The notes under the pieces: model-generated | Seen by the model: the letters and a program-made list of their open reading frames with translations, nothing else | Told to the model about the DNA's origin: nothing | Database searches by the model: none | Assembly (NCBI RefSeq): GCF_003201875.1 | Contig: NZ_QJKD01000002.1 | Span: 496,001 to 560,000, forward strand | Source: Hungatella effluvii | GTDB lineage: Bacteria > Bacillota > Clostridia > Lachnospirales > Lachnospiraceae | Length of the DNA stretch: 64,000 nt | Direction of reading: 5' to 3' | In this document: one piece after another, positions 6,841 through 61,861 of the stretch | Layout: each line of letters opens with the position of its first letter | Position numbering within the stretch: position 1 is the first letter of the stretch | Position numbers and translations under genes: made by a program

Positions 6841-6871
6841 ATGTTGTTATGCCCCCTGTCACTCTGCCTTA

Positions 6872-7047: not shown

Positions 7048-7084
7048 CGTAAGATGGCAGAATGACAGAAAGGAATGCAGAATT

Positions 7085-34324: not shown

Positions 34325-35200
34325 ATGAAGAGCTTTGAGCAGAAAATATTCCCATATCTTTTACTGGCTCCGACTATGATTATCTTCGGCCTGTTTCTGT
34401 TTTTTCCGGCGCTGAACGGCCTGTGGATATCGCTGACGAAATGGGATGGCGTTAATCCCCAGGTGTTTGTGGGGGTAAAAAACTATGTGACGCTTTTGGG
34501 CGATAAGAGCTTCTGGAACTCGTTTGTGAGGACGCTTATATTTACTCTGGTATCCGTCCCCTCGGTCTATGCGGCGGCCCTTGGACTGGCGGTTCTGCTG
34601 GCTGGAGGGATTCGCGGAAGCAATTTCTTCCGGGCGGTGTTCTACTGGCCGACCATGATTTCCACGATCATCGTCGGACTTACCTGGCGTTTTCTGCTGG
34701 GTGAAGATTTTGGCCTGGTCAATTACCTTCTGACTGCGATGGACCGGACGCCGGTCAAATGGCTGACTGATCCGAACAATGCCATGGGAGTCGTGATCTT
34801 TGTCACGGTCTGGAGCATGGCAGGCTACTACATGGTCATGTTTGTGTCGGGAATCAAGGCGATCTCTGAGACATGCTACGAGGCGGCCCGAATCGACGGT
34901 GCAGGCGCGTGGCAGCAGTTTCGGTTTATAACGCTTCCTCTGCTGAAACCCACCAGCCTTCTGGTGCTGGTTTTATCCACGGTATCGATCATCAAGACGT
35001 ATCCTCTCGTGTATTCCCTGACCCAGGGCGGTCCGGCCGGGGCTACGAAATTCATGGTGCAGATGATCCAGGAGACAGGGTTCGAAAAGAATAAGATGGG
35101 CTATGCCAGCGCAATGACCATGGCGCTGTTTCTTATCCTGGCGCTGTTTACAATTATTCAGTTCAAACTGAATCAGGGAGGTGAACAGGATGCAGACTAA
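34325..35200 (+). CDS. Sugar ABC transporter permease (MalF type)
   Basis: A 291-residue CUT1 permease with six helices and the EAA loop YEAARIDGAGAWQQFRFITLPLLKP. KGAGAACC-type site (AAAGGAGAACC) before the ATG. It overlaps the next permease by 11 bp. The binding protein of this system lies at the far end of the operon (40591), not next to the permeases. Confidence 0.92.
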   Translation: MKSFEQKIFPYLLLAPTMIIFGLFLFFPALNGLWISLTKWDGVNPQVFVGVKNYVTLLGDKSFWNSFVRTLIFTLVSVPSVYAAALGLAVLLAGGIRGSNFFRAVFYWPTMISTIIVGLTWRFLLGEDFGLVNYLLTAMDRTPVKWLTDPNNAMGVVIFVTVWSMAGYYMVMFVSGIKAISETCYEAARIDGAGAWQQFRFITLPLLKPTSLLVLVLSTVSIIKTYPLVYSLTQGGPAGATKFMVQMIQETGFEKNKMGYASAMTMALFLILALFTIIQFKLNQGGEQDAD

Positions 35201-36023
35201 AACAAAGAAAATCTGTACAGAGGGGCTCAAATGGATTCTTCTTCTGGTTTTGACCTTTTTGTTTCTGATGCCGGTAGTCTGGGTGATCTGTTCTTCTTTT
35301 AAGAGCGTCGGCGAGCTGTTTTCCTGGCCACCCAGCCTGCTGGGGAAGAATCCGTCTCTGGATAACTACACAAAGGCCATGGCGGAAGGCCACTTTGGCA
35401 TATACTTTTTCAACACGGTGTTTGTCAGCCTTGTGGCCACATTTCTGACCATAGTGGTAAATGTGATGAGCGGCTATGCATTTGCCAAGTACCATTTCAA
35501 GGGGGACAAAATCCTGTTTGGAATCGTTCTTGCAACGCTGATGGTACCGCTGGAAGTCATTATGATCCCCATTTTCAAGGTGATCGTGGCGACTCATCTA
35601 TACAATAATTTGTGGGGGCTTATCATTCCGGCGGTCGCATCCCCGACGGCGGTGTTCCTGGTGCGCCAGTATTATGTGGGAATCCCGGATGCCTATATGG
35701 AGGCGGCCAGAATCGACGGTGCGTCAGAGCTTAATATCCTCTTAAAGATCATGCTTCCCATGGCGAAGCCGGTCATATCGGTTCTCTGTATCTTCTCCTT
35801 CATGTGGAGGTGGAACGACTATCTGTGGCCGAAGCTGGTAATTAACGGAAAGGAGCGCTATACCATCCAGCTGGCCCTGGCCAACTATTCGGGCGAGTAT
35901 TCTGTGGACTGGAACAGCCTTCTGGCCATGTCCGTGATCTCGATGATACCGGTGATCATTGTATTTGTAACACTTCAGAAATATATTATCGGCGGCATGA
36001 CTGCCGGAGGAGTAAAAGAATAA
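35190..36023 (+). CDS. Sugar ABC transporter permease (MalG type)
   Basis: A 277-residue CUT1 permease with six helices, EAA loop MEAARIDGASELNILLKIMLPMAKP and tail KYIIGGMTAGGVKE. The start at 35190 is chosen because GGGAGGTG lies 7 bp before it; the GTG at 35181 is part of that site. Followed after 14 bp by an unrecognised large gene with its own AGAGGAGGG site. Confidence 0.92.
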   Translation: MQTKTKKICTEGLKWILLLVLTFLFLMPVVWVICSSFKSVGELFSWPPSLLGKNPSLDNYTKAMAEGHFGIYFFNTVFVSLVATFLTIVVNVMSGYAFAKYHFKGDKILFGIVLATLMVPLEVIMIPIFKVIVATHLYNNLWGLIIPAVASPTAVFLVRQYYVGIPDAYMEAARIDGASELNILLKIMLPMAKPVISVLCIFSFMWRWNDYLWPKLVINGKERYTIQLALANYSGEYSVDWNSLLAMSVISMIPVIIVFVTLQKYIIGGMTAGGVKE

Positions 36024-36037: not shown

Positions 36038-38566
36038 ATGAAGTACTTGGAATATCCGCTGTTTGCGGAAGGGTATGTCAACCGTTTTCTGACCGCCGGT
36101 GTCTTCACGGAGGTTCAGCAGTTTGACAAGGTGAAGCTTTACGGCCGGGTGAATGAGTGGCTGAAAAAGGGATTTGCAATCCATGAAAATCCGTGCAGAA
36201 AAGAGTTTGTAAGAAAGAGACAGGAGAAAATGCCGGATTATCTGGAACTTGACGGGGCAGTGGACGGGAAAACAGTAAAGGTCTTTGGACAGACGCGCCC
36301 GCTCATTCCGTACTTTCCGTTCGGCAACACGGGCGTGGATAGCTCTGGATTCTATTACTGCCCGACCTGGCTGCGCATGTACAGTTATGTGCTGCTGGAA
36401 GCAGAGGCGGAAGGTGACGTGGAGTTTGAGCTGGAAACCTGCGGCGGTGTTACAATTTGGGTGGATGGGGCGTTTGTCACGGACTTTACCCCATTTACAA
36501 GGAACATGGTGAAGAAGACGACGGTCGTTTTGCCGCTTAAGGCGGGAAAAAACCGGCTTCTGGTCTGCCTCGATGATCTGGCGGAGCGGGACACGGACTA
36601 CTATTTCCGCTTAAAACGCCTGGGAGACGCGTCGCTTACCATGCTGGTGCCGGTGAGGGATGAAGTGGATGCAGACGTGATCGGGCGGTTGGAAAATATG
36701 CTGGATCAGATGTATTTCGATAAGGAAGCGTATATCAGTGAGACGGTGAAGCTAAATATATCGAATCCATTTTCCTGTCCTCTGCCTGTCGCGGTAGCGG
36801 TAGCTCCGGGTGAATTTATCGAGAAGATGGAGGGGCAGGAAAGTCTGATGCGCGCCTTCCGCCATGAACTGGAACCGGATCAGAAGGTTCTGGAGCTTTT
36901 CGAGTCGGATGAGATCCCGCCGGGATACTGTTGCTTTACGGTGTGTGCAGAACATCGGGGGATTTCTCTGAAACGTAAGATTGGGAATCAGCTGGTAAGA
37001 AAAGAATTCTTAGAATATCATGAGGCTGATCTGGAGGATAGAAAACGCCATATCCTGAGGGTAATTACAGAGTATGCGCCGGAAAATACATACAAGGCGG
37101 CTGCGCTCTTAAAGCTGGGCCCTGAGACGGAACGTGCAGAGCGGATCCTTCTCACGGAACTTCCCGGCGTTTGGGCGAGAAAGGACTGTTCGGATTTCCA
37201 TTTTATTATTATGCTGTATATTTACCGTACATTTTATGAGCGTCTGTCGCCGAAGATGCGGGAGGAGCTGGAGCTTGCCATGTGCGGCTTCCGGTACTGG
37301 ATCGATGAGCCGGGAGATGACGTGATGTGGTTCTTCAGTGAGAATCACGCGCTTTTATTCCATTGCTGCCAGTACCTGGCGGGAAGCTGGCTTCCGGACA
37401 GAATCTTCACGGGCAGCGGGAAAACCGGGCGGGAGGCGAGCGCCAGAGGCGAGGAGCTGCTTCGCGAGTGGTTCGAGGACTTCTTCAAAGAATTTATCAC
37501 CGAATGGAACTCCAATGCCTATATTCCGGTGGATGTGCTGGGCCTGGGCACGCTCTATAATCTGACGGAACCCGGAAGCGAGTTCCATCAGAAGGCAAAA
37601 CGGGCTCTGGACATGATCTTCTGCTCGCTCCGGGTAAATGCGCACAAGGGCGCCGTGATGACCAGCTTCGGCCGCTCCTACGAAAAGGAAATGAAGGGAA
37701 ATTTCAATGCGGGTACGACGTCTCTCCTCTATCTCGCCTACGGAGACGGGTATTTGAACCGGGCCTGCAATGGCTGTATTCCGCTGGCTCTCGGAGACTA
37801 TGCGGCACCGGAGGAGTTTAGGCCTTACGGAGCGTTAAAGGAGAACCAGGAACTGATATTTAGGAATACTCAAGGGTTTGAGAAGCATGTGAATCTCTAT
37901 CTGTATAAGAACGCTTATGCCCTGCTCTCGACTGCGGTGGGATTCAAACCATTTCAGAAGGGATATCAGGAGCATATTGTTCAGGCAGTGATTGATGAAC
38001 TGGCCCAGGTGTTCGTAAACCACCCGGGGGAGTCATTCCCGTACGGCAGCGGCCGGCCTAACTTCTGGGCTGGGAATGGGATCCTGCCACTGGCAGTCCA
38101 ATACCGCAATACGGCGATTCTCCGGTATCGGATTGGCAGGGAGGAAAGAATCGGCTATACTCATGCTTATATACCGCTCTCCGCATTTACCCGGTATCTT
38201 GGGGAAGACGGCGTCATTGTCCTGGATAAGGACGGCGCTTACATTGCGGTGAAGGCGATGAACGGGCTGACCATGCAGCAGGAAGGACCAAACTGTTTCC
38301 GGGAATTCATGAGTCAGGGCCGCGATAATGTGTGGGTCATTCGGGCAGGACGAATGGACGAGTACGGCGATTTGGATGCGCTGCTTGCTGCGTTTAAGAA
38401 AATAGAGATCCGGACAGACGGGGAGGAGACTGTGGTAAGGGATGAGAGGGGAACGGAGTTCCTGACCGGCCCGGATTTCCTTCTGAAAGTAAACGGAGAA
38501 ACGGTCTATGACTATCCGCTGGACGTGGAGGGCAAATTAATTCTGGAGGAATGCGATCGTGGTTGA
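36038..38566 (+). CDS. Large protein, possible carbohydrate-active enzyme, family not recognised
   Basis: An 842-residue protein with no signal peptide. Residues ~100-200 look like a galactose-binding-like jelly roll (YVLLEAEAEGDVEFELETCG, then IWVDGAFVTDF and LPLKAGKNRLLVCLDD). Residues ~340-650 are helical with spaced aromatic and acidic residues (MWFFSENHALLFHCCQYLAG; EWNSNAYIPVDVLGLGTLYN), a pattern like the alpha/alpha toroid of polysaccharide lyases and GH105-type hydrolases. The C-terminal ~200 residues look beta-rich (GVIVLDKDGAYIAVKAMNG). It sits between CUT1 permeases and a GH105 gene that overlaps it by 8 bp, so it probably acts on the same imported oligosaccharide. I cannot assign a family or catalytic residues. 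Confidence 0.6.
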   Translation: MKYLEYPLFAEGYVNRFLTAGVFTEVQQFDKVKLYGRVNEWLKKGFAIHENPCRKEFVRKRQEKMPDYLELDGAVDGKTVKVFGQTRPLIPYFPFGNTGVDSSGFYYCPTWLRMYSYVLLEAEAEGDVEFELETCGGVTIWVDGAFVTDFTPFTRNMVKKTTVVLPLKAGKNRLLVCLDDLAERDTDYYFRLKRLGDASLTMLVPVRDEVDADVIGRLENMLDQMYFDKEAYISETVKLNISNPFSCPLPVAVAVAPGEFIEKMEGQESLMRAFRHELEPDQKVLELFESDEIPPGYCCFTVCAEHRGISLKRKIGNQLVRKEFLEYHEADLEDRKRHILRVITEYAPENTYKAAALLKLGPETERAERILLTELPGVWARKDCSDFHFIIMLYIYRTFYERLSPKMREELELAMCGFRYWIDEPGDDVMWFFSENHALLFHCCQYLAGSWLPDRIFTGSGKTGREASARGEELLREWFEDFFKEFITEWNSNAYIPVDVLGLGTLYNLTEPGSEFHQKAKRALDMIFCSLRVNAHKGAVMTSFGRSYEKEMKGNFNAGTTSLLYLAYGDGYLNRACNGCIPLALGDYAAPEEFRPYGALKENQELIFRNTQGFEKHVNLYLYKNAYALLSTAVGFKPFQKGYQEHIVQAVIDELAQVFVNHPGESFPYGSGRPNFWAGNGILPLAVQYRNTAILRYRIGREERIGYTHAYIPLSAFTRYLGEDGVIVLDKDGAYIAVKAMNGLTMQQEGPNCFREFMSQGRDNVWVIRAGRMDEYGDLDALLAAFKKIEIRTDGEETVVRDERGTEFLTGPDFLLKVNGETVYDYPLDVEGKLILEECDRG

Positions 38567-39638
38567 GAAACAGATTATGGAAGAAAAGCTGAATCTTGTA
38601 TCGGACAAGATGATGATACTGAAAAATAATGGAATGAAGGAGAAATATCCGGTCAGCCTGATCGACATCAACTGTTGGGAATGGCCGCAGGGGGTGGGGC
38701 TGTTCGGCCTTTACCGGTATTATGAGATGAGCCGGAAACCGGAGCTGCTCACGTTCCTGACGGAATGGTATGACAGACGCATGGAGGAGGGAATCGTTGA
38801 AAAAAATGTGAATACGACTTCCCCCATGCTGACACTCACCTACCTTTATGAAATTACGAAAAAGGAGTCCTATCTCTCCTTAATTGGAGAATGGGCGGAC
38901 TGGATCATGGAGGATAAAGGACTGATTCGGACCGGAGACGGCTGTTTTCAGCATATGATTACCGGCAATCCCAATGACTCGGAGATCCTGATCGACACAC
39001 TGTTTATGACGGTGCTGTTTCTGGCCCGGGCCGGCAAGCTCTTAAATCGGCCGGATTATATCGAGGAAGCAAAGTATCAGGTTTTGTGCCATATTAAATA
39101 CCTTCTGAATAAAAATGAGGGGCTGTTTTACCATGGCTTTAATTTTAAGAGGAACGACAATTATGGCGGAATTCTCTGGGGGCGGGGAAATTGCTGGTAT
39201 ACGATTGTGGCAATGGAACTGATCCAGGAAATTCCTATGGAGGAAGGGCTGAAACGCCATTTCCTTACGGTCTATGAAAATCAGGTGGAGGCGCTGAAAC
39301 GGTATGCAGATCCGGAAACGGGGCTGTGGCACACGGTGATCGACGACCCGGATACCTACCTGGAACTCTCCGCCAGCGCGGCATTTTTAAGGGGCATTAT
39401 GCAGGGCGTGAGGCTTGGAATTCTGAAGCGGGAAGCGTACGAGGGGCTCATAGAAAAGGCCGTGAAGGGGCTGCTGGACAACATCGGCGATGACGGAACG
39501 GTGAAGAATGTATCTTATGGCACCCCAATCGGGCTTGATAAGGAATTTTACAATAAAATTCCGTGCTGCCCCATGACGTATGGACAGGCACTGATGATAC
39601 TGGCCCTTCAGGAGGCATTGACGGATTACTGGCATTAG
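38559..39638 (+). CDS. GH105/GH88-type unsaturated uronyl hydrolase
   Basis: A 359-residue cytoplasmic alpha/alpha toroid hydrolase. WGRGNCWYTIVAMELI is the hallmark of YteR-like GH105 (WGRGNGW), and the N-terminal INCWEWPQGVGLFGLYRYYE fits the same fold; the catalytic Asp region around GDGCFQHMITGNPNDSEILIDTLFM carries the IDT element. The family hydrates the double bond of 4,5-unsaturated uronic acid at the non-reducing end of lyase products, releasing the uronate. It overlaps the preceding gene by 8 bp and starts with GTG (GGAGGA 10 bp before); an ATG at 38577 is the alternative. It suggests pectin, rhamnogalacturonan or glycosaminoglycan fragments as substrate. Confidence 0.9.
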   Translation: MVEKQIMEEKLNLVSDKMMILKNNGMKEKYPVSLIDINCWEWPQGVGLFGLYRYYEMSRKPELLTFLTEWYDRRMEEGIVEKNVNTTSPMLTLTYLYEITKKESYLSLIGEWADWIMEDKGLIRTGDGCFQHMITGNPNDSEILIDTLFMTVLFLARAGKLLNRPDYIEEAKYQVLCHIKYLLNKNEGLFYHGFNFKRNDNYGGILWGRGNCWYTIVAMELIQEIPMEEGLKRHFLTVYENQVEALKRYADPETGLWHTVIDDPDTYLELSASAAFLRGIMQGVRLGILKREAYEGLIEKAVKGLLDNIGDDGTVKNVSYGTPIGLDKEFYNKIPCCPMTYGQALMILALQEALTDYWH

Positions 39639-39654
39639 AATGGAGGTTGTGACA

Positions 39655-40569
39655 ATGAAAGAACGCGTATTTTTTGAAGAATTTGAATCTCTGTATTATT
39701 TTCATGGAAGTACACAAAACTGGTCGATGCAGGGCTTTCATTTTCACAACCAATATGAGATTATTCTGTTCTTAAGCGATGGGGCGCTGCTGGAAATCGG
39801 TGACCGCGTCTACCATGTGATGAAGGGCGATCTGTTTTTTGTTAACAACCGGGAATATCACCGCACCAGTGGGGCGGAGGGGCAGGAATACAACCGATAC
39901 GTCCTGATGTTTGAACCGGAACTGCTGGAACCGATGACAAAGGCGTTTGGCTATGACTTTACCATGTTTTTCGAGAACAGGGGAGACGATTTCGTCCACA
40001 AGCTCTATCTGGAGGGCGAAAATCTGAAGCGGGTGGAGCGGCTCCTGGCCAGAATCGAGACGAATATAGGCAGCGGCAGCAGTGATGAAGCGTCTGTTAA
40101 GATCCGCCTCTCCATTCTGGAACTGATTACAGCCATTAATGAGATGTATAAGTTTTTTACGAAGGAGAAACACACTGCCGCGGATCAGGAGGAACGGAAA
40201 CTGAAAGGGGACGAGGAGAAATTCCGGGACCCGATTCTGTACCGGGAGCGGGTGGAACAGATCAAGAAATATATCGCAACCCACGTGGAGGAAAAACTGG
40301 ACCTGGATGAGATTGCGGGAAAATTTTATATGAACCGTTATTATTTAAGTCATTATTTCAAAAAGGAGACCGGGTTTGCGGTTCTGCAGTATGTGACGAA
40401 CCAGAAGATTATTGCGGCCAAAGCACTTTTGAAAAAGGGCACTTCGGTTACGGATGTGGCGCTGAAACTTTCTTACAACAGTGACAGCCACTTTATCTCG
40501 GTGTTTAAAAAGAGTACGGGGATCACACCGAAAAAGTATGCACAGAATAAAAAGAACAATAATGTATGA
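39655..40569 (+). CDS. AraC family transcriptional regulator
   Basis: A 304-residue regulator. The N-terminal cupin domain (GFHFHNQYEIILFLSDGALLEIGD...GDLFFVNNREYHR) binds a small effector. The C-terminal ~100 residues hold the two helix-turn-helix motifs: LDEIAGKFYMNRYYLSHYFKKETG and VTDVALKLSYNSDSHFISVFKKSTGITPKKY. GGAGG 8 bp before 39655 fixes the start, not the ATG at 39640. It lies within the operon it probably controls, between the GH105 and binding-protein genes, giving a feedback loop. Confidence 0.93.
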   Translation: MKERVFFEEFESLYYFHGSTQNWSMQGFHFHNQYEIILFLSDGALLEIGDRVYHVMKGDLFFVNNREYHRTSGAEGQEYNRYVLMFEPELLEPMTKAFGYDFTMFFENRGDDFVHKLYLEGENLKRVERLLARIETNIGSGSSDEASVKIRLSILELITAINEMYKFFTKEKHTAADQEERKLKGDEEKFRDPILYRERVEQIKKYIATHVEEKLDLDEIAGKFYMNRYYLSHYFKKETGFAVLQYVTNQKIIAAKALLKKGTSVTDVALKLSYNSDSHFISVFKKSTGITPKKYAQNKKNNNV

Positions 40570-40590
40570 TTTTTGAAAGGAGAGAATCTT

Positions 40591-41850
40591 ATGAAGAAAT
40601 GGTTATCAGTTCTGCTGGCAGGGGCTATGGTATTGGGGACGCTTTCCGGCTGTTCCGGCGGGGGCAGGAAGACCGAAAATGAAGTAAAGACGTTGGATGT
40701 CGTCTGGTTCAGTGATGGAAAAGAGGGGGAATCCTTCATGAAACTGGCCGGCAAATATATGGAGGAGCATCCGAATATCAAGATCGAGCTGATCGAAGTT
40801 CCATATGCGGATCTCGAAAGCAAGATCAAGAACATGATCAACGGCAAGGAAGCTCCGGCGCTGGCCAGGCTTACGAATATCGGGCCGTTCCAGAACCAAC
40901 TGGTGGATTTGGGCGGATACGTGTCGGACAAGGATACGTTCCAGAACAGCTTTGGCGAGGGGTTAAAGTTTGTATTTGACGGAAAAATCCTGGCGGCTCC
41001 CATGGATGTAACAGCCAATGGATTAATTTATAATAAGACAGCGTTTGAAAAAGCCGGTGTGGCTGTGCCGCAGTCAGAGGATGAGATCTGGACCTGGGAT
41101 GAATGGAAGGAAGCCATGAAGACCGTGATGGATAAGAGTGACTGTAAATACGGACTGGTCTATGACAAGTCTCCGCAGCGTTTCACCACTCTGCTGTACG
41201 AGGCTGGAGGCAGCATGTTAAACAGCGATTTGACAGCGTCGAATTTCAATACAGATGAGACGAAAAGGGCGGTAAGCTTCTTTAAGGATCTGCACGACGA
41301 GGGAATTATCCCGACCTCTGTATGGCTGGGATCGGAAAACCCCAACAACCTGTTCCGTACCGGTCAGGTGGCCATGCATTTTGCGGGAAGCTGGATGATT
41401 GCAAACTATAAGGAAGAGATTACGGACTTTGACTGGGGCGTTACCTATCTGCCAAAGGAAGCGATCCGTTCCTCCGTACCGGGCGGCAAGTACCTGGCTG
41501 CTTTCCAGAACACAGGTGTGGAGAAGGAAGCTGCGGAATTCATTGAATGGATTTCCAAGGCGGAGAACAATGCGCAGTACTGCGTGGAAAACAGCTACTT
41601 ATCTCAGGTTAAGGGCAATGAGAGCCTGGACTATGAATACGGAAAAGAATTCTTCACGATCTTCTCTCAGGAGCTGGCAGCTACAGGACCGCAGCCGGGT
41701 GCAGAGTGGGGCTACCAGGCATTTACCGGGGCGATTCAGAATGATTTGAGAGATAAGCTGATCGAGGTGCTGGCCGGCCAGCTGACGGTGGATCAGTATG
41801 CGGAAGATATGGACAAGCTGATTACGGATACGCTGGAGGAATTGAAATAG
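40591..41850 (+). CDS. Sugar ABC transporter substrate-binding lipoprotein
   Basis: A 419-residue CUT1 solute-binding protein with a lipoprotein signal (KKWLSVLLAGAMVLGT, lipobox LSGC). Family hallmarks include EEHPNIKIELIEVPYADLESKI, DGKILAAPMDVTANGLIYN and WTWDEWKEAM. Start set by AAAGGAGAGAATC. It is the last gene of the operon and supplies the binding component for the permeases at 34325 and 35190; ~5.4 kb between permeases and binding protein is unusual. A terminator follows after 75 bp. Confidence 0.92.
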   Translation: MKKWLSVLLAGAMVLGTLSGCSGGGRKTENEVKTLDVVWFSDGKEGESFMKLAGKYMEEHPNIKIELIEVPYADLESKIKNMINGKEAPALARLTNIGPFQNQLVDLGGYVSDKDTFQNSFGEGLKFVFDGKILAAPMDVTANGLIYNKTAFEKAGVAVPQSEDEIWTWDEWKEAMKTVMDKSDCKYGLVYDKSPQRFTTLLYEAGGSMLNSDLTASNFNTDETKRAVSFFKDLHDEGIIPTSVWLGSENPNNLFRTGQVAMHFAGSWMIANYKEEITDFDWGVTYLPKEAIRSSVPGGKYLAAFQNTGVEKEAAEFIEWISKAENNAQYCVENSYLSQVKGNESLDYEYGKEFFTIFSQELAATGPQPGAEWGYQAFTGAIQNDLRDKLIEVLAGQLTVDQYAEDMDKLITDTLEELK

Positions 41851-43265: not shown

Positions 43266-43282
43266 ATTAAACTTAATTTAAT
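43266..43282. promoter_or_regulatory. Operator-like repeat, downstream copy
   Basis: The exact ATTAAACTTAATTTAAT repeat, directly before the GGAGGAG ribosome site. Centre-to-centre distance from the upstream copy is 93 bp, about nine helical turns, so a loop across the promoter is possible. The ROK protein encoded at 46625 is the obvious candidate ligand. Confidence 0.6.
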
Positions 43283-43295
43283 GGAGGAGAAAGGC

Positions 43296-44660
43296 ATGAG
43301 AAAAAAACTGATCGGTTTATCAATCGCCACAGCACTTGGGATCATGAGTCTGACCGCATGCAAGAGCCAGCCGGCTGAAAACGCGGGCACCAATGGAGCC
43401 GCGGATACGACGGCCCAGGCAGAAGGAACGAAAGAGGAAGGCACGTCAAAAGAGGCGTCGGGGGATCGCGTTAAACTGGAAATATGGGACTGGTGGGGAG
43501 ATGGTCAGTACAAACATGTAATTGAACAGCTCTGTCAGAACTTTAATGAGTCTCAGGATACATATGAGGTGGTGCATGTCAACTATCCATGGGGGGATGT
43601 ATGGACAAAGGCATTGGCAGCCACCGCGGCAGGGAATCCTCCTGACGTGATTATTCAGGATATCCGTACCGTTACGCACAGGGCGGAAGCGAAGCAGGCG
43701 ACGGACTTGACGGATCTGATTGCAAAAGAGGGCGATGGTTTTACAGACCAGTTTTATCCACAGCTGATGGATGCCATGATGTATGACGGACATGCCTATG
43801 GACTGCCTTACGTAACAGATACCAGAATTCTTTACTATGACAAGGATGCATTTGCGGAGGCGGGACTGGATCCGGAAGCACCGCCAGAAACATGGGCACA
43901 GCTTGTGGAGTATGCCAGAAAGCTGGATGTGAAAAAGGACAACGGTTCCTATGAGCGCCTCGGATTCTTCCCGGGAACCCTGGAGTGGAATGCATGGGCA
44001 TTTACCGCAGACGGAAAAGATTATACAGACGCAGACGGCAATGTCTACGTGAACACACCTGAAAAGGTAAAGATGTTTGAGAATATTTATAATGATTTTT
44101 ACCAGTATTATGGAAAGAAAGAACTGGACAGTTTTTCGGCTGAATTTGGCAATGGTATGACGAATCCTTTCGTCGCCGGCAAAGTGGCGATGTGGGTGAA
44201 TACACCGACCGAATTTACAAAGGTACGCGACTATGCACCGGATAAGAATTACGGTGTGGCCCTGCTTCCGGCACTGGAAGAAGGCGGCGAACACTATTCC
44301 TGGGGCGGCGGTTTCTCTGTTGAGATCCCTTATGGAGCCAAGGATACAGACGGTTCATGGGAATTCGTAAAATTCATCACCAGCAAGGAATCACAGATTT
44401 ACTGGGCATCTGAAGTTTACGATACCGTAGCGAATATTGAAGCATCACAGGATCCGTCCCTGATGGATATCCCTGTATTTAAGATGGCGCTGGAGGCCAT
44501 GCCGACCACAGTCGTTACTCAGGACCGTCTGACTGCACCGGGCGCTTCCGACATCGTGCTTCCGTATCTGGATGAGATCATTCTGGGTAACAAGACACCG
44601 CAGGAGGCACTTGACGAGGCTCAGGCTTCAGTTGAACAGTTGGTACAGGACAGCAAATAA
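43296..44660 (+). CDS. Sugar ABC transporter substrate-binding lipoprotein
   Basis: A 454-residue CUT1 solute-binding protein. Lipoprotein signal: RKKLIGLSIATALGIMS, lipobox LTAC. A Thr/Ala/Glu-rich linker (NAGTNGAADTTAQAEGTKEE) precedes the binding domain (LEIWDWWGDGQYKHVIEQL; AAGNPPDVIIQDIRT; DGHAYGLPYVTDTRILYYD). Start at 43296 after GGAGGAG, not the ATG at 43281. It is first in an ~18.5-kb set of catabolic genes and should bind the oligosaccharide that the locus degrades. Confidence 0.93.
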   Translation: MRKKLIGLSIATALGIMSLTACKSQPAENAGTNGAADTTAQAEGTKEEGTSKEASGDRVKLEIWDWWGDGQYKHVIEQLCQNFNESQDTYEVVHVNYPWGDVWTKALAATAAGNPPDVIIQDIRTVTHRAEAKQATDLTDLIAKEGDGFTDQFYPQLMDAMMYDGHAYGLPYVTDTRILYYDKDAFAEAGLDPEAPPETWAQLVEYARKLDVKKDNGSYERLGFFPGTLEWNAWAFTADGKDYTDADGNVYVNTPEKVKMFENIYNDFYQYYGKKELDSFSAEFGNGMTNPFVAGKVAMWVNTPTEFTKVRDYAPDKNYGVALLPALEEGGEHYSWGGGFSVEIPYGAKDTDGSWEFVKFITSKESQIYWASEVYDTVANIEASQDPSLMDIPVFKMALEAMPTTVVTQDRLTAPGASDIVLPYLDEIILGNKTPQEALDEAQASVEQLVQDSK

Positions 44661-44714
44661 CGGCGCTGGTAACTTTCTGTCACAGAGACAGGGGGAGACA
44701 CAGGGGGGTGTCAA

Positions 44715-45635
44715 ATGACAAAGATGAAACACACCATGACGAAGCGTGAAAGCAGAGAGGCGCGAGCGGGCTGGCTGTTTATCAGCCCGTGGCTGATAGG
44801 CTTCCTCTGTCTGACAGGAGGACCATTGCTTTTTTCGCTGTATGCATCATTTACGAATTATAACATGACTTCCAGAATGGACTTTATCGGGCTTTCCAAT
44901 TACATAAAGATGTTTACTAAGGATCCTGTATTCTGGAAGTCATTGGGAAACACACTTTACTACGTGGCGCTGGCAGTGCCCAGCTCCTGTATCTGTGCGA
45001 TTTTTCTTGCGACGCTGCTGAACCAGAAGGTGAAGGGAACACCGCTGTTTCGGATGCTTTTTTACCTGCCTACCGTACTTTCCGGTGTGGCGGTATATCA
45101 GCTCTGGATGCAGCTGCTGGCTCCTCAGAGCGGACTGATCAATTCCGTGCTGCGGCTGGTGGGAATCGAAGGGCCTTCCTGGCTCTCCGATCCGGCCTGG
45201 ACGAAACCATCTCTGGTTATGATGCGGGTATGGGCACTGGGAACCAGCATGCTGTTATACTTATCTTCCATGAATTCGGTTTCCAGGGATTTGTATGAAG
45301 CAGCCGATATTGACGGCGCCTCGTTTTTACAGAAATTCCGTAAGATCACACTGCCGCAGATTTCCCCTATTATCTTTTTTGACATCATCACCAATATGAC
45401 GGGTGCATTTCAGGTATTCCAGGAGGCGCTGGTCATGAGCAAGAACGGTAAGGGAGATCCGGCAGGGTCCCTTCTGTTCTATAATCTGCATATTTATCAG
45501 GAGGCATTTACCCATTACGACATGGGATATGCGTCTGCGATGGCATGGTTTTTGCTCCTGATTGTTATGTCGATAACCGTGGTCAATCTGATCGCATCAA
45601 AATACTGGGTACATACGGAAGAAGGTGAGACGTAA
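44715..45635 (+). CDS. Sugar ABC transporter permease (MalF type)
   Basis: A 306-residue CUT1 permease with six helices (GWLFISPWLIGFLCLTGGPL at the start) and EAA loop YEAADIDGASFLQKFRKITLPQISP. It overlaps the next permease by one base. No ATPase gene is in the locus, so a shared MsmX-like ATPase elsewhere is likely. Confidence 0.92.
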   Translation: MTKMKHTMTKRESREARAGWLFISPWLIGFLCLTGGPLLFSLYASFTNYNMTSRMDFIGLSNYIKMFTKDPVFWKSLGNTLYYVALAVPSSCICAIFLATLLNQKVKGTPLFRMLFYLPTVLSGVAVYQLWMQLLAPQSGLINSVLRLVGIEGPSWLSDPAWTKPSLVMMRVWALGTSMLLYLSSMNSVSRDLYEAADIDGASFLQKFRKITLPQISPIIFFDIITNMTGAFQVFQEALVMSKNGKGDPAGSLLFYNLHIYQEAFTHYDMGYASAMAWFLLLIVMSITVVNLIASKYWVHTEEGET

Positions 45636-46513
45636 TGGCTGCTGATACGAAAACAGGAAAGAGGGGCGGACTGACCAGCAGACGCAGGAAAAAGACAATC
45701 GTTAATGTGATCTGTTTTATTCTTCTGGCGGCCGCGTCCCTGACGGTGATCATGCCCCTGTGGTTCATGGTGTCCACCGCCTTAAAGAGCATGGATGAGA
45801 TATTTACGTATCCGATTACGTGGTATCCCCACGAGCCAATTTGGAGCAACTTTAAGGACGCCTGGGTAAGCGCGGAATTTACCCGGTGGTTTTTCAATTC
45901 CGTATTTGTGGCGGCATTTGCCATTCTCGGCGGTGTGCTCGCTAATTCTCTGGTGGCCTACGGATTCGCAAAGATACGGTTTCCAGGCAGAAACATCATG
46001 TTCTCCATTATCCTGGCGACGATGATGATTCCGGAATTTGTGACGATGATCCCCCAGTACGTCCTGTATGCGAAGCTGGGATGGGTCGGCACGTATCTGC
46101 CGCTTATTGTACCGCAGTTTATGGGATCAGCATACTTTATCTTTATGCTCCGGCAGTTTTACGCGGGGATTCCCAACTCGGTCATTGAATCGGCGCAGAT
46201 CGACGGCGCCTCCCATTTCCGGATCTGGAGAAGCATCATGCTTCCTATGGCCAAGCCTGCAATCATGACGGTGGTGGTACTCTCCTTTAACTGGAGCTGG
46301 AATGACTTTTTGAAGCCGCTGCTGTACCTGATGGATACGAAGACTTTCACCCTGCAGCTGGGGCTTAAGATATTCGTGAGCCAGTCCAATACCCAGTGGA
46401 ACTACTTAATGGCGGCTTCCTGTATTGTTTTACTTCCGATTATCGTCGTTTTCATGTGCCTGCAGAGATACTTTACAGATGGCATGAATATCGGCGGAGC
46501 GGTAAAGGGATAG
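45635..46513 (+). CDS. Sugar ABC transporter permease (MalG type)
   Basis: A 292-residue CUT1 permease with six helices, EAA loop IESAQIDGASHFRIWRSIMLPMAKP and C-terminal RYFTDGMNIGGAVKG. About 110 bp separate it from the ROK regulator, which has its own promoter. Confidence 0.92.
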   Translation: MAADTKTGKRGGLTSRRRKKTIVNVICFILLAAASLTVIMPLWFMVSTALKSMDEIFTYPITWYPHEPIWSNFKDAWVSAEFTRWFFNSVFVAAFAILGGVLANSLVAYGFAKIRFPGRNIMFSIILATMMIPEFVTMIPQYVLYAKLGWVGTYLPLIVPQFMGSAYFIFMLRQFYAGIPNSVIESAQIDGASHFRIWRSIMLPMAKPAIMTVVVLSFNWSWNDFLKPLLYLMDTKTFTLQLGLKIFVSQSNTQWNYLMAASCIVLLPIIVVFMCLQRYFTDGMNIGGAVKG

Positions 46514-46552
46514 TTTATTGCTGCTGTTCAATCTGTTGAAGCATTTGGCGAA

Positions 46553-46581
46553 TTGAAATATCATTTGCCCTGAAGTATAAT
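46553..46581 (+). promoter_or_regulatory. Promoter of the ROK regulator and downstream genes
   Basis: TTGAAA (46553-46558), 17 bp, perfect TATAAT (46576-46581), ~44 bp before the ROK start. It can drive the enzyme genes independently of the transporter promoter. Confidence 0.8.
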
Positions 46582-46624
46582 GGTACTATGAGTTTCAGAC
46601 AAATGAAAAGGAAAAGGAAGAAAT

Positions 46625-47839
46625 ATGGCAGACCAGAATAATCAGGTACAGCTCAAGAATTTTAACAGAAGAACAGTGCTGGGTTACATCAGAAGGAACG
46701 GCACGGCTACGAAGGCAGGACTCGCCAGCGTTACCGGCCTGACGTTTATGGCGATCAAGAAGATCCTGGCGGAGCTCCAGGAACTGAATCTGATCCGTGA
46801 CGGACAGATGGAATCGGGCGGCATGGGCAGAAAAGCAGTATCCTATGTGATCAATGAGAATTACCGCTACACCATAGGCATCCATATCAATAAATTTATT
46901 ACTGGTATTGCCCTCTTAAATCTGCGGGGGCAGATTCTGGCCATCGAGCGGTATTCCATGGATAAGGAATTTGAGAATCAGAACGATTTTGTGACCATGC
47001 TGGCTGAGGCCGTGAACAGGGTGATAGAAAAATCCGGTGTGAAGCGGGACGATATTCTGGGTATCGGTGTAGGCGCTCCAGGTCCTCTGGACTGTGAAAG
47101 CGGCGTAATTCTGACTCCGCCCAATATGCCGATGCTGGATTACCTTCCTTTGAAGGAAACGCTGGAGGGGAGAACCGGTTTTCCCGTCTTTCTGAATAAA
47201 GATACGAATGTAATTGCATTTGCCGAGTACTGGTACAGAAATAACCGGGACTGCTCCAATCTCGCATACGTGGAAGTGGATATGGGAATCGGCAGCGGTA
47301 TCATTATCGATGGAAAGCTGAACGTAGGCGCCAACTGTATCGCCGGTGAGTTCGGGCATATCACCATTGATTTAAACGGTCCGCTCTGCAACTGCGGGAA
47401 CCGCGGGTGCCTGGAGGCCATGAGCTCCGGCATTGCCGTACTGCGGATGCTGGGAGAACAGCTTGAGAATCAGAAGGACCACCCGCTTTACCATAAGAGG
47501 AATTCCCTGACGATCGAGGATGTGTTTGAGATGACGGACAAAAAGGATCTGCTCACCATTTCCATCTTAAACCGCTCCGCTTTCTATGTCGGAGTGGCGG
47601 TCAGCAATCTGATCAATACCTTTGATCCTGAGATGATTATTCTGGGCGGAATCCTGATACAGAAGTATCCCATGTATTTTAATATTGTCCAGGATGTGGC
47701 GAATCAGAGGAAGGTGAAGGGAGCAAAGGAAAACTATATGGCGGTATCTGTATTAAGGGAAAATGCAGGTGTCATTGGAGCCGGCGAGATTGTGACGGAT
47801 CACTTCTTCAATCAGTTTGTGAACGAAGTGTTCCATTAA
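46625..47839 (+). CDS. ROK family transcriptional regulator
   Basis: A 404-residue ROK repressor of the NagC/XylR/Mlc type. An N-terminal winged helix (RRTVLGYIRRNGTATKAGLASVTGLTFMAIKKILAELQELNL) is followed by the sugar kinase-like domain: GIGVGAPGPLDCESGVI, NKDTNVIAFAEYWY, GSGIIIDGKLNVGA, GEFGHITID and the zinc motif CNCGNRGCLEAM. It should bind the operator when free and leave it when a sugar is bound. Likely targets are the two ATTAAACTTAATTTAAT repeats around the promoter at 43198. AAAAGGAAAAGGAAG gives the ribosome site. The enzyme genes begin 28 bp after its stop. Confidence 0.93.
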   Translation: MADQNNQVQLKNFNRRTVLGYIRRNGTATKAGLASVTGLTFMAIKKILAELQELNLIRDGQMESGGMGRKAVSYVINENYRYTIGIHINKFITGIALLNLRGQILAIERYSMDKEFENQNDFVTMLAEAVNRVIEKSGVKRDDILGIGVGAPGPLDCESGVILTPPNMPMLDYLPLKETLEGRTGFPVFLNKDTNVIAFAEYWYRNNRDCSNLAYVEVDMGIGSGIIIDGKLNVGANCIAGEFGHITIDLNGPLCNCGNRGCLEAMSSGIAVLRMLGEQLENQKDHPLYHKRNSLTIEDVFEMTDKKDLLTISILNRSAFYVGVAVSNLINTFDPEMIILGGILIQKYPMYFNIVQDVANQRKVKGAKENYMAVSVLRENAGVIGAGEIVTDHFFNQFVNEVFH

Positions 47840-47867
47840 AAAGAGAAAAGAAGAAAAAAGGGGTTCT

Positions 47868-49952
47868 ATGTTTAGCAGCAGAAAAATAACTCAGTGTGAT
47901 CAGATAGAAGTGATTTGGGAGGACAGAGTAGTTTTTCTGCTGTCTCTTTCTCCAGAGGAGGGGACGGCGGGAGAACTGCAGGAGACAGCAGCGGAAGATA
48001 CTGTGCTTATTACGGTGCGGGCGGAAAAGGAGACGAGGGAGCCCTGTTTTGGACCACAGACATATTTTGATCCCCGGGAAGGCCTTGTATACCATATGGA
48101 GCTTCCTGAGACGGAACGTTTCCTTGCCGTCTATCAGCATAAGGACTGGTGGGTCAGACCCGCTTTTTTTTCGGACATAAAAGCGCTTCCGGACAGGACG
48201 CAGCTCCTTCTGTTTCAGAACGGAGCCACGTATTTCGTCATTCTTTCCGTATGCGGGGAGAATTGCCGGACGGATTTATGTAGGGTGGAATCACACGAGG
48301 GAGATCATTCCCGGTCTGAGAACCGTTTGGCAGTCCGCATGGCGTCAAATGCTGGAAACAGAAACCGTATGGAAGACTTAAGTCTGGTGCTTGCCGGAGG
48401 AACTGACCCGTATCTCTGCTGTGAGAGAGCGGTTAAGACGGCTCTCGACAGGCTGGGGAGAGCCTCCATGTTCCGAAAAAACAGGAGGTTTCCGGAAAAA
48501 CTGGATTCCTTTGGCTGGTGCACCTGGGATGCTTTTTACCACAGGGTTTCTCATGAAGGCGTGATGAAAAAGATGAGAGAGTTCCAGGTGAAGCAGCTTC
48601 CGGTAAAGTGGGTGCTGATTGACGATGGGTGGCTTGACGCGGATTACGATAAAAAGCTGCTGTTTGATTTGGACGCGGATAAAGGGCGTTTTCCGGAGGG
48701 CTTAAAAGGCTGTGTAGAGGAGCTGAAGGAAATCTGGAAGGTGGACAGCGTAGGGGTCTGGCACGCCGTCATGGGCTATTGGAACGGTCTGGCCAGCGGT
48801 TCTCCGGCGGCCCGGAAACTGAAAATGGGCTCCAGGGGGCTGCCGGATGGCCGGATTCTTCCGGAACCGGAGGCCGGAAAGGCATTTACCTTTTTTGAAA
48901 CGTGGCATGAGTATTTAAAGAACCGCTGCGGCATCGATTTCGTGAAGGTGGACGGACAAAGCGCGGTCTCGCTGGCTTATGAAGGGTTAGAGACGTACGG
49001 ACATGCATCCCGTGAGATTCAGAAAGGGCTGAACGCATCGGCGGCGCTTTATTTTGACAACTGCATCATCAACTGTATGGGGATGGCCAGTGAGGATATG
49101 TGGAACCGTCCCAGCAGCGCCGTAGCCAGAAGCAGCGATGACTTCGTCCCGGAGGTGCCTCACGGTTTCCGGGAACACGCGGTACAGAACAGCTATAATT
49201 CACTTCTTCAGGGCCAGTTTTTCTGGGGAGACTGGGATATGTTCTTCAGCAGCCATGAGGAAAACTGGCAGAATTCCATTCTCCGCGCGGTAAGCGGAGG
49301 CCCGGTCTATGTGAGCGACCGGGTGGGGGAGACGGATCCGGACTTTATCCGGCCCCTTATCACAGGAACAGGGCGTGTGATCCGGTGTGAGGACGTGGGC
49401 ATGCCTACGACGGACTGTCTGTTTGAAAATCCGGCAGACACGCTGCGGCCGCTTAAGATATTTAACCGGTACGGAGAAAACTATGTGATTGGCGCCTTCC
49501 ATATCTGCGGAAAAGAAGAAAACTGCCAGGGGAAGCTTGATAAGACCGACATTCCGGCACTTTCAGGACGAAACTGGCTGGTATACGATTATAAAGCGAG
49601 GACGGTTTGCAGACTGGGAGATGCCGGGATAAACTTTTTGCTGCCGGAAGGCGGGGCGAATCTGTTCCTGCTCGTTCCGGACTGCGGCCGGGGCAGGCTG
49701 ATCGGAATACTGGAAAAGTATATTTCCTGTGGCGGCCTCCGAATCCTGCGCAAAGAGGAATGCCGTGTGACTGCCCTCGTTTGGGAGGCCGGCACGCTTG
49801 GCTTTGCAGCGGATCAGGGACCGTACCGGGTGCGGATTGACGGCAGGGAATGTGAGGCGGTCTGCCGGGGCGGGATGCTCTGGACGGTTCCGTGTGAAAA
49901 AGTGGACTGCCTGGTGGAGATAGAGTGGTATGGGAAAGGTGAGGTTGTGTGA
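47868..49952 (+). CDS. GH36 alpha-galactosidase-like (Sip1/raffinose synthase type)
   Basis: A 694-residue cytoplasmic protein. After an N-terminal beta-sandwich (~1-190) comes the TIM barrel with the Sip1 strings DSFGWCTWDAFY, KWVLIDDGWLD, GIDFVKVDGQS (nucleophile Asp) and SSAVARSSDDFVPE (acid/base Asp), then a C-terminal beta domain. Plant relatives are alkaline alpha-galactosidases and raffinose/stachyose synthases; bacterial ones are mostly untested. It should cleave or transfer an alpha-galactosyl or similar residue. It overlaps the FGGY kinase by 4 bp (ATGA). Substrate in this locus is unknown. Confidence 0.85.
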   Translation: MFSSRKITQCDQIEVIWEDRVVFLLSLSPEEGTAGELQETAAEDTVLITVRAEKETREPCFGPQTYFDPREGLVYHMELPETERFLAVYQHKDWWVRPAFFSDIKALPDRTQLLLFQNGATYFVILSVCGENCRTDLCRVESHEGDHSRSENRLAVRMASNAGNRNRMEDLSLVLAGGTDPYLCCERAVKTALDRLGRASMFRKNRRFPEKLDSFGWCTWDAFYHRVSHEGVMKKMREFQVKQLPVKWVLIDDGWLDADYDKKLLFDLDADKGRFPEGLKGCVEELKEIWKVDSVGVWHAVMGYWNGLASGSPAARKLKMGSRGLPDGRILPEPEAGKAFTFFETWHEYLKNRCGIDFVKVDGQSAVSLAYEGLETYGHASREIQKGLNASAALYFDNCIINCMGMASEDMWNRPSSAVARSSDDFVPEVPHGFREHAVQNSYNSLLQGQFFWGDWDMFFSSHEENWQNSILRAVSGGPVYVSDRVGETDPDFIRPLITGTGRVIRCEDVGMPTTDCLFENPADTLRPLKIFNRYGENYVIGAFHICGKEENCQGKLDKTDIPALSGRNWLVYDYKARTVCRLGDAGINFLLPEGGANLFLLVPDCGRGRLIGILEKYISCGGLRILRKEECRVTALVWEAGTLGFAADQGPYRVRIDGRECEAVCRGGMLWTVPCEKVDCLVEIEWYGKGEVV

Positions 49953-51358
49953 TGATATCTTTGGGAATTGATATAGGGACCACTTCGATCTGTGCGGTTC
50001 TCTATGATCTGACAGAAGATAAAATAATAAGGAGTGTAAGTGCACCTAATTCCTTTGTAAATACAGGAAGCTATCTTCAGGATCCGGATAGAATTGTATC
50101 GGTGGTAAAAGAGTTATATAAAGAATTGATGATGGAATTAAAGCTTTGGACCGGGGAACGTGAAACAAGAAAAGATGCGGTGCTGGCCGGAGTGGGAATA
50201 TCCAGTCAGATGCATGGTATTTTGTATACAGATAGTATGGGGAAGGCGGTAACTCCGCTTTATACCTGGAAAAATGAAGATGGGAATAAGGAGTACCGCG
50301 ATGGCCTGACCTATGCCCGTTATCTGGCGAAGGAGACGGGACTGCCCTTTTATACGGGGTATGGAAGTGTCACACATTTTTACCTTCAGGAGACGGGGCA
50401 GATTCCGGATAACGCGGCAGCGTTTGTTGGGATTGGAGATTATCTGGCTATGCAATTAACCGGAAGCCGAAAGGCGGTCGTTCATAAGACAACGGCGGTC
50501 AGCTTCGGAGGCTGTGACTTGGAGGAAGGCCGGTTTGAGCTGGAAAAACTCTTGGCAGCCGGCGTGGATATATCCTATTATCCCGCGGTTGCAGGGGCGA
50601 AAGATCTGACTGCCGGATCTGTGAACGTGGAGAGTGAGATGGATTTGACGGGCGGGGATCGTGTTGTGCCAGAATCGGTTCCGGTGCTTTATGCGGTAGG
50701 AGACAATCAGGCCAGCTTCCTGGGGGCTGTCAGGGATCAGGAGCATGCCGTCAGCATCAATGTGGGAACCGGCTCTCAAGTGTCGGTTTACAGCAAAGAT
50801 TTTTACCCGGAGGCCGGAACCGATATCCGGCCCTGGATCGAAGACGGATACTTGTATGTGGGCGCCTCCTTAAACGGAGGAAAAGTGTATGAGCGTCTGG
50901 CTGCATTTTTCGAGGAGGTCTGCGAGAAATTTACCGGGCAGAAGATTGACGCCTACAAGGCTATGGAACGCCTGGCAATGGAGGAAAAAGAGACAAAACT
51001 GCGCGCGGTACCGACTCTTTATGGAAGCAGGAAAGAGATGGAACCGGGGCAGGAAGCGGGAATCTACGGGTTAAACCCGGATAATTTCCATCCGGAAGAC
51101 TTCATCCGCAGCTTTACGGCGGGCATGGCCCATGAGCTGTTCTCCTTATACAGCACATTTCCGGACATGGTATGTGCGGGAAAGACGCAGATTGTGGCGT
51201 CCGGCAACGGGATTCGGAAAAATACGCTTTTGAGGGAAGACGTGGAACGTGTATTCGGTCTGCCGGTTATTTTTACGGACCGGGAAGAAGAGGCGGCGTC
51301 CGGCGCGGCGCTGTACGTCCGGCGGGCGGTCATTGAGGGGGGAGCAGAATGCAGATAA
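49949..51358 (+). CDS. FGGY carbohydrate kinase, sedoheptulokinase-like
   Basis: A 469-residue sugar kinase. Phosphate 1 is SLGIDIGTTSICAVLYD; GISSQMHGILYTD is a substrate loop. Further strings resemble vertebrate sedoheptulokinase as I remember it: GDYLAMQLTG, AVGDNQASFLGAV, YLYVGASLNGGKV and VASGNGIRKNTLLREDVERVFGLPV. Xylulokinase and glycerol kinase fit less well. The likely reaction is ATP-dependent phosphorylation of sedoheptulose, or a related ketose, to the 7-phosphate. It overlaps the GH36 gene by 4 bp and the ROK kinase by 10 bp. A GmhA-like isomerase for the same phosphate ends the locus. ATG at 49952 is an alternative start. Confidence 0.8.
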   Translation: MMISLGIDIGTTSICAVLYDLTEDKIIRSVSAPNSFVNTGSYLQDPDRIVSVVKELYKELMMELKLWTGERETRKDAVLAGVGISSQMHGILYTDSMGKAVTPLYTWKNEDGNKEYRDGLTYARYLAKETGLPFYTGYGSVTHFYLQETGQIPDNAAAFVGIGDYLAMQLTGSRKAVVHKTTAVSFGGCDLEEGRFELEKLLAAGVDISYYPAVAGAKDLTAGSVNVESEMDLTGGDRVVPESVPVLYAVGDNQASFLGAVRDQEHAVSINVGTGSQVSVYSKDFYPEAGTDIRPWIEDGYLYVGASLNGGKVYERLAAFFEEVCEKFTGQKIDAYKAMERLAMEEKETKLRAVPTLYGSRKEMEPGQEAGIYGLNPDNFHPEDFIRSFTAGMAHELFSLYSTFPDMVCAGKTQIVASGNGIRKNTLLREDVERVFGLPVIFTDREEEAASGAALYVRRAVIEGGAECR

Positions 51359-52329: not shown

Positions 52330-52341
52330 GGAAATGATACG

Positions 52342-56362: not shown

Positions 56363-56379
56363 GTGTATACGGAGGCGTG

Positions 56380-61252: not shown

Positions 61253-61255
61253 AGG

Positions 61256-61861
61256 ATGGATCATTTAAAACGGCTTCTGGAGCGGTATCCCGCTTTATGC
61301 GGCATGAAAGAGGAGATAGAACGTGCTTATGGCCTGCTGGAAACCGCTTATTCACAGGGTGGAAAACTGCTGGTCTGTGGAAATGGAGGCAGCGCGGCAG
61401 ATTCCGACCACATTGTGGGGGAACTGATGAAAGGATTCTATAAAAAGCGCCCGCTGAGTGACGCAGAAAAGGATGGGCTGGGAGATCTGGGAAACCGTCT
61501 GCAGGGCGCGCTCCCTGCGGTCTCGCTGACAGGGCACAGCGCCCTGTCCACCGCCTTTTCAAATGACGTAGACCCGGAAATGGTATTTGCCCAGCAGGTG
61601 TACGGCTACGGAAGGCGCGGTGATGTGCTGATGGCGATCAGTACTTCCGGCAATTCCATAAATGTGGTAAATGCCGCCAGAGTGGCAAAAGCAAAGGACC
61701 TTTCTGTCATATCTCTGACCGGAGGTGCCGGGGGCCTCTTAAAGGAAATCAGTCACGTATGTCTTGCGGTTCCAGCACTGATGACAGCCGACATTCAGGA
61801 ACTGCATCTTCCTGTCTATCATACGCTGTGTGCGATGCTGGAAGAACATTTTTTTCCGTGA
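61256..61861 (+). CDS. SIS-domain phosphoheptose isomerase-like (GmhA-like)
   Basis: A 201-residue SIS-domain protein. LLVCGNGGSAADSDHIVGELMKGF, TAFSNDVDPEMVFAQQVYGYGRRGDVLMAISTSGNS and TADIQELHLPVYH match sedoheptulose 7-phosphate isomerase GmhA, including the His and Glu of SDHIVGEL and the Gln and final His of QELHLPVYH. GmhA makes D-glycero-D-manno-heptose 7-phosphate from sedoheptulose 7-phosphate for surface glycans. Here it closes a degradative set instead, so the reverse direction is possible. A 15-residue insertion (KKRPLSDAEKDGLGD) after GELMKGF sets it apart from classical GmhA. A terminator follows. Confidence 0.82.
   Translation: MDHLKRLLERYPALCGMKEEIERAYGLLETAYSQGGKLLVCGNGGSAADSDHIVGELMKGFYKKRPLSDAEKDGLGDLGNRLQGALPAVSLTGHSALSTAFSNDVDPEMVFAQQVYGYGRRGDVLMAISTSGNSINVVNAARVAKAKDLSVISLTGGAGGLLKEISHVCLAVPALMTADIQELHLPVYHTLCAMLEEHFFP

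Follow-up and report, generated by a model that had tools for sequence, protein, structure and literature searches.

An unnamed protein family encoded beside GH105 in Hungatella effluvii, a probable cytoplasmic uronate-oligosaccharide lyase

Enzymes of the glycoside hydrolase (GH) families GH105 and GH88 require an unsaturated uronate (PMC8511951). Two kinds of described enzyme come closest to the protein discussed here. By predicted structure they are the heparinase-fold lyases of the polysaccharide lyase (PL) families PL12, PL15, PL17, PL21, PL35 and PL39, together with PL8, which combine an alpha/alpha toroid with an antiparallel beta-sandwich; by role it is P29_PDnc, the ulvan oligosaccharide dehydratase of Formosa agariphila, which is described as working with GH105 on non-reducing-end uronate (PMC8511951). 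We have analysed a gene for an 842-residue protein in a 64,000-nucleotide stretch of Hungatella effluvii (contig NZ_QJKD01000002.1, positions 496,001 to 560,000 of the forward strand; the window in what follows), which lies directly before a GH105/GH88 gene. We suggest that its product is probably a cytoplasmic oligosaccharide lyase of an unnamed family, with the heparinase/alginate-lyase fold, that makes the unsaturated uronate for GH105. The predicted lyase fold, the GH105 and KduI genes found beside members of the family and the absence of an export signal lead us to think that the unsaturated end is probably made in the cytoplasm. The gene and the parts of its product are located as follows.

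36038..38566, + strand: unnamed-family gene, 842 amino acids, predicted cytoplasmic uronate-oligosaccharide lyase (open reading frame, relatives, structure prediction, hydropathy)
36065..36631, + strand: residues 10-198, N-terminal jelly roll like a GH2 sugar-binding domain or PA14 (VIA)
36632..37000, + strand: residues 199-321, second beta domain (DSSP of the model)
37001..37843, + strand: residues 322-602, alpha/alpha toroid (predicted structure)
37343..37348, + strand: Asn436-His437, proposed charge neutraliser and base (invariant, 70/70)
37502..37522, + strand: Glu489-Trp-Asn-Ser492-Asn-Ala-Tyr495, proposed catalytic Tyr motif E-x-x-S-x-x-Y (E489, S492 and Y495 invariant, 70/70)
37844..38563, + strand: residues 603-842, antiparallel beta-sandwich, with Q644-E-H646 and N-H662-P-G (predicted structure, alignment)

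The reading frame is open over all 842 codons and starts with an ATG preceded by GGAGG; the sequence-only reading of this DNA had given its coordinates exactly. AlphaFold2, run with 51 sequences, returned a whole model with a pLDDT of 92.0 and a pTM of 0.92; a separate model of the core (residues 322-842) has a pLDDT of 91.2. The binding-module-like N-terminus and the helical toroid-like core that had been proposed from the letters are both seen in the prediction. The jelly roll resembles GH2 enzymes and PA14 with VIA Z values of about 9-9.8 (6mvg: Z 9.8, 3.1 A over 123 residues). When the core was searched with Foldseek, the top 16 chains, which stand for about 11 different proteins, had E values between 1.4e-8 and 2.5e-5. 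They were lyases of PL12, PL15, PL17, PL21 and PL35, human dermatan-sulfate epimerase 1 and the chondroitinase 9o3q; a GH127 follows at E 1.3e-3, and GH127 and GH146 appear at 1e-3 or worse. The PL numbers given for the top 16 are presumed ones, taken in part from entry titles and PMC12088678. VIA aligned the core across both domains with 9o3q (Z 11.5, 393 residues, 6.3 A), the PL17 enzyme 4nei (Z 11.5, 425 residues, 5.5 A) and the PL8 enzyme 1c82 (Z 10.5, 434 residues, 5.0 A), and the likeness to these lyase families extends over about 370-450 aligned residues. The core is thus predicted to have the two-domain fold of heparinase, alginate and glycosaminoglycan lyases, a shared fold that leaves function unproven. 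PL33, PL37, PL38 and PL40 are not among the structural matches listed, which is no evidence either way.

The residues conserved across the family resemble those that heparinase-fold lyases use. Over 70 aligned rows from Bacillota, spirochaetes and alphaproteobacteria, some of them close relatives, N436, H437, E489, S492, Y495, R546, Y548, R673, H709 and E756 are invariant (70/70). An Asn with a neighbouring His is a known arrangement (6LJA: Asn336-His337, 6JP4: Asn186-His187; PMC12088678), and the 59 residues from Asn436 to Tyr495 are close to the spacings that we obtained as differences between the residue numbers of Table 4 in that paper: seven entries, from PL12, PL15, PL17, PL35 and PL39, give 53-57, the PL8 enzyme 1RWA gives 59 and the PL23 enzyme 3VSM 63. 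In a weak profile alignment E489, S492 and Y495 fall opposite the E-x-S-x-x-Y motif that heparinase II/III relatives carry. We suggest that N436, H437 and Y495 may match the lyase active site in space. The C-terminal catalytic His is a different matter. It lies 130-166 residues after the Tyr in six of the seven PL12/15/17/35/39 entries of the same Table 4, and the positions that may answer to it in our family are Q644 (67/70), H646 (53/70) and H662 (69/70). The case for H646, which we favoured at first for its invariance in 18 rows, was weakened when it proved to be His in only 38/51 and in the 53 of 70 just given.

Among the known lyases, the PL15 exo-lyases Atu3025 (3a0o) and BIexoHep (6lja) are matched by the core with Foldseek E values of 2.2e-7 and 6.4e-7, and like the family protein they consist of three parts, the toroid being preceded by a beta domain. 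6lja also has Tyr390 to accompany its adjacent Asn-His pair (PMC12088678 Table 4). Neither exo-lyase is matched in sequence, and BIexoHep is reported to differ in having a signal peptide and in using His555. Unlike the heparinase-fold lyases in general, the family adds an N-terminal jelly roll and a second beta domain, has a Gln at the C-terminal His spacing and carries no export signal: a simple hydropathy test found no signal-peptide-like stretch in any of 68 alignment rows (68/68).

The course of events that we propose is the following. An ABC transporter would import a short uronate-containing oligosaccharide, possibly a pectic one. The lyase would then cut the 1,4-bond on the non-reducing side of the uronate by beta-elimination, in which Asn436, perhaps with an Arg, would neutralise the carboxylate, His437 or Tyr495 would take the C5 proton, and Tyr495 would protonate the leaving group. 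The product would be a 4,5-unsaturated uronate at the new non-reducing end, a trait that the family would share with the heparinase-fold lyases, to be removed by the neighbouring GH105 enzyme; the released uronate would be processed by KduI/KduD-type enzymes. Catalysis itself, the roles of the residues, the substrate and the direction of action are all points that we infer.

Searches against named families set the protein apart. The absence of any family signature noted from the sequence agrees with what we found: the window protein has no match in Pfam at E<=1, no curated match in NCBIfam and none among PDB sequences (E<=5; E<=10 with a profile of 51 sequences), PL17, PL35 and PL39 structures included. 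The strong match to a described family that would have told against novelty was therefore absent from these three collections. PF16889, PF07940 and PF08124 (heparinase II/III, Lyase_8) are matched neither by the window protein and 18 members at E<=1 nor by 51 members at E<=0.1, and PF07470 (GH105/GH88) is not matched by the window protein at E<=1. The sole NCBIfam match, to the alpha-D-galacturonidase model NF049878, reaches 13.8 bits where the model's cut-off is 1300; since it comes from the window protein alone among the 18 and 51 members scanned, we took it as chance and rejected it. PA14 is matched in Pfam by some members (4/51 at E<=0.1, best 5.7e-8; 6/18 at E<=1, best 0.0012) and not by the window protein, and at E<=0.01 neither Pfam nor NCBIfam assigns a family to the three alphaproteobacterial members scanned. 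Among the titles and abstract openings listed in searches of open-licence full texts, some of them directed at GH105, BglB naming or rhizobial pectin genes, none reports the family, although a nameless family could stand there under a locus tag. One of our loci, L089, belongs to P. amylolyticus 27C64, on which two papers about pectin exist. This is probably a new polysaccharide-lyase family, set apart by Pfam, NCBIfam and PDB sequences rather than by CAZy profiles.

The neighbouring genes give the second line of support. In the window, the family gene stands third in an operon of transporter, enzyme and regulator genes.

34325..35200, + strand: ABC sugar permease 1 (PF00528)
35181..36023, + strand: ABC sugar permease 2 (PF00528)
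38559..39638, + strand: GH105/GH88 enzyme of the unsaturated uronyl hydrolase family (PF07470, 4.3e-83; PDB 3pmm, 3qwt, 4xuv, yteR)
39640..40569, + strand: AraC-type regulator (PF12833)
40573..41850, + strand: solute-binding protein with a hydrophobic leader (PF01547; hydropathy)

The family gene lies between the second permease gene and the GH105 gene, and the AraC and solute-binding protein genes follow. As called, the GH105 gene starts with a GTG at 38559, with AGGA upstream, and overlaps the family-gene stop by 8 nucleotides; a later start is possible. The GH105 identity given in the sequence-only reading is borne out by the profile match, and the translational coupling that it claimed would be in keeping with the overlap.

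The association recurs elsewhere. Our sample comprised 97 distinct loci, the best 80 of 538 GTDB stretches and 17 from other genome searches, with L086 and L134 counted once as one locus; several others are close relatives, and the loci should not be counted as independent events. Of the 97, 57 have a GH105/GH88 gene on the same strand at a distance of at most 400 nucleotides, and 12 more have one farther away. In the genome of the window, where PF07470 has 22 matches in 6.86 Mb, we estimate that chance would supply such a neighbour in roughly 1-2% of cases, and the variation of gene order between lineages argues against one fixed block inherited whole. KduI acts on the sugar released by GH105/GH88. 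In Pannonibacter, Pseudosulfitobacter and Salipiger, where the family gene keeps company with GH88, the kduI gene comes immediately before it; Pseudosulfitobacter and Salipiger also have kduD and a TRAP transporter there. The 97 Bacillota/spirochaete stretches contain no KduI that could be found by similarity; the genome of the window has one (44% identity), which is not near the window. Four Rhizobium clusters have the order family gene, GH88, GH28, ugpC and two permeases, and the Rhizobium GH28 that we scanned is 'polygalacturonase PglB' (NCBIfam, 713.7 bits against a cut-off of 600). This is the setting of a rhizobial PglB/BglB cluster, in which the family gene, GH88 and GH28 stand side by side (NCBIfam names from one cluster); the family gene there is a 'hypothetical protein', and 'beta-galactosidase BglB' for the GH88-type enzyme is an NCBIfam model name only. 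Other lyases do not appear in the gene tables of seven alphaproteobacterial clusters, tables that are incomplete: the four that we checked leave 0.5-1.8 kb gaps.

Several results weigh against the lyase proposal. The HepII spacing (Tyr257 to His406, 149 residues) falls on Gln644 in the family protein, and the C-terminal catalytic His of known lyases would seem not to be clearly kept. Tyr can act as both base and acid in PL15 and PL17 enzymes (PMC11921355), so a Gln at the His position need not abolish catalysis. The structural scores are modest: Foldseek TM-scores between core and lyases are low (0.32-0.48), VIA Z values of 10-11.5 are middling on the tool's own scale, and with the whole model Foldseek places TEP1 and GH2 enzymes first (TM 0.10-0.16), the first lyase being 8khv at rank 31. 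The hhalign scores of the family are 24-26 with heparinase II/III relatives and 26-27 with PL8; five unrelated controls reached 13-21, and 20 shuffles did not exceed 16.9. The best match overall is the neighbouring GH105 toroid (36-37), and the scores may reflect no more than helical-hairpin repeats. Because the GH105 toroid outscores the lyases, and as the scores are not significant, we rejected the profile-profile comparison as proof of homology to heparinase II/III or PL8; on the sequences compared, homology of the family to known lyases is not established. Finally, a GH105/GH88 gene is missing from the stretch in 28 of the 97 loci. Half of these are among the 17 other loci (near in 1, farther in 2, none in 14), and the best 80 GTDB loci divide into 56 near, 10 farther and 14 without, some of the last being short contigs or contig ends (e.g. 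L055, L066, L072, L096).

The alternatives to a lyase must be weighed against the same evidence. The main rival is an oligosaccharide dehydratase, which would eliminate water (the C4 hydroxyl) from a saturated non-reducing-end uronate and so give the GH105 substrate. An enzyme without an export signal, paired with GH105/GH88, would fit this role, as would the TRAP transporter beside it in two Roseobacteraceae plasmids, a type of transporter that suits a small substrate. P29_PDnc, which feeds GH105 in ulvan breakdown, is a precedent; we liken it by its described role, and the catalytic residues reported for it differ, the proposed ones being Asp and Lys and a Y306F exchange being tolerated (PMC8511951). 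The family carries instead the invariant lyase-type Asn-His and Tyr set, and we therefore consider a dehydratase unlikely, if still a serious candidate. Were it correct, saturated terminal-uronate sugars would become GH105 substrates without an extracellular lyase, and an intracellular uronate dehydratase on a heparinase-lyase fold would be a general route in gut Bacillota, spirochaetes and plant-associated rhizobia; this too we hold to be unlikely. Dermatan-sulfate epimerase raises another idea, a uronate C5-epimerase that prepares the uronate for GH105 or another enzyme, as the human enzyme is the second Foldseek match of the core (E 1.3e-7). The GH105/GH88 enzyme would still need an unsaturated sugar, the seven alphaproteobacterial tables contain no other lyase, and we regard an epimerase as highly improbable.

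The sequence-only reading had allowed for a hydrolase or a lyase acting on the same substrate. A toroid-type glycoside hydrolase could explain the VIA matches that are confined to the toroid, with the GH105 enzyme 4ce7 (Z 9.3 over 242 residues) and the GH116 enzyme 5o0s (Z 9.2 over 219 residues), the neighbouring GH105 as best sequence-profile match, and the GH2-like jelly roll. It sits poorly with the best 16 chains of the core, all of them lyases but for the one epimerase and ahead of GH127 and GH146, and with the adjoining KduI, which implies an unsaturated product; we judge it quite unlikely. The GH2/PA14-like N-terminal domain might also suggest a non-catalytic carbohydrate-binding partner of GH105, which is very unlikely given that lyase-type polar residues are invariant in all 70 rows and across all three groups of bacteria. 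The fold, the invariant Asn-His and Tyr, and the GH105/KduI neighbours thus speak for elimination, by a lyase or a dehydratase, rather than hydrolysis, so that of the two original options the hydrolase is the less favoured.

As to the substrate of the proposed lyase, the GH28 genes in the Rhizobium operons and at five other loci suggest a pectic one, which we weakly favour. A GH28 similar to that of Rhizobium occurs in 5 of the 97 loci (L101, L106, L128, L131, L132); L106, L128, L131 and L132 have no GH105/GH88 in the stretch, L101 has one 3.1 kb off, and GH28 stands beside GH88 solely in the four Rhizobium clusters. The close relatives of the window among the loci compared have no GH28 of this type. 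As the GH28 loci mostly lack GH105 and these relatives lack such a GH28, the substrate may differ between clades. A glycosaminoglycan is not favoured, the most informative neighbours being GH28 pectinases, in part of the family only. A short weak match to the PL11 rhamnogalacturonan lyases YesX/YesW was seen in a 462-residue protein near the family gene in L057 (10486-11871; the member scanned), which occurs also in L060 and L096. Beside a distant family member, L125 encodes a 778-residue protein (5167-7500) with a GH105-like domain in residues 440-772 only. A recurrent 551-residue protein lies near family genes in L121 (14625-16277), L123 and L127, beside GH105 in the first two; the L121 member has no Pfam or NCBIfam match. 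A cluster of GH31 proteins is represented in 11 loci (three members scanned), and GH36 and GH38 are near it in some spirochaetes (one member of each scanned).

The gene is real, and it belongs to a large family: 17 relatives align with the window protein at 20-89% identity, and a GTDB genome scan gave 538 confirmed stretches that encode relatives. The best 80 of these come from Lachnospiraceae, Oscillospiraceae, Paenibacillus, Bacillus, Halanaerobium, spirochaetes and others. A relative in Hungatella hathewayi DSM 13479 has 89% protein identity, with 82-91% DNA identity over matching pieces, and the genome of the window holds two paralogues (31% by tblastn, 25% by alignment). Counting that genome, matches were found in 15 of 299 genomes searched within its bacterial family and in 6 of 398 drawn as a sparse sample from its phylum. 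Plasmids contribute 200 matching records, among them 123 from Rhizobium, 40 from Pseudosulfitobacter and three from the archaeon Haladaptatus; phage records contain no match to the family. Wherever a label is given, among 50 plasmid rows listed (some records twice), the family gene is called 'hypothetical protein'. In Lacrimispora xylanisolvens ASCUSBR21 it appears as two open reading frames (L062:8001-10471).

At 11 Lacrimispora/Hungatella/Clostridium-like loci (L034, L035, L037-L040, L042, L044, L046, L062, L070; Pfam on L034 only), the sugar operon lies between rpoB-rpoC and the fusA cluster, usually a compact region; L036, L041 and L045 show one side of this setting before the contig end or cut. 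Downstream in the window, 43281-61861 holds a second large sugar cluster with a solute-binding protein, permeases, a regulator, a raffinose-synthase-type protein, a GH13-type protein, an 860-residue FAD-oxidoreductase-like protein and two GH38 enzymes and, by a look at the sequence, two kinase-like genes and one sugar-isomerase-like gene. An FAD_oxidored cluster is near the family gene also in L081, L084, L088 and L092 (one member scanned). At E<=0.001 the genome has three PF16889 heparinase-like and two PL8-like matches in addition to its 22 GH88/105 matches, which marks H. effluvii as a uronate-rich degrader.

A uronate must be unsaturated before GH105/GH88 enzymes can act on it, and in the clusters that we read the gene tables contain no other candidate for that step. 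If the lyase proposal is correct, the family fills that gap and makes such GH105 operons testable. It would also count as a lyase family that is probably new, and might supply a tool enzyme for acidic oligosaccharides, drawn from a nameless group of proteins that spans gut Bacillota, spirochaetes, rhizobia and roseobacters.

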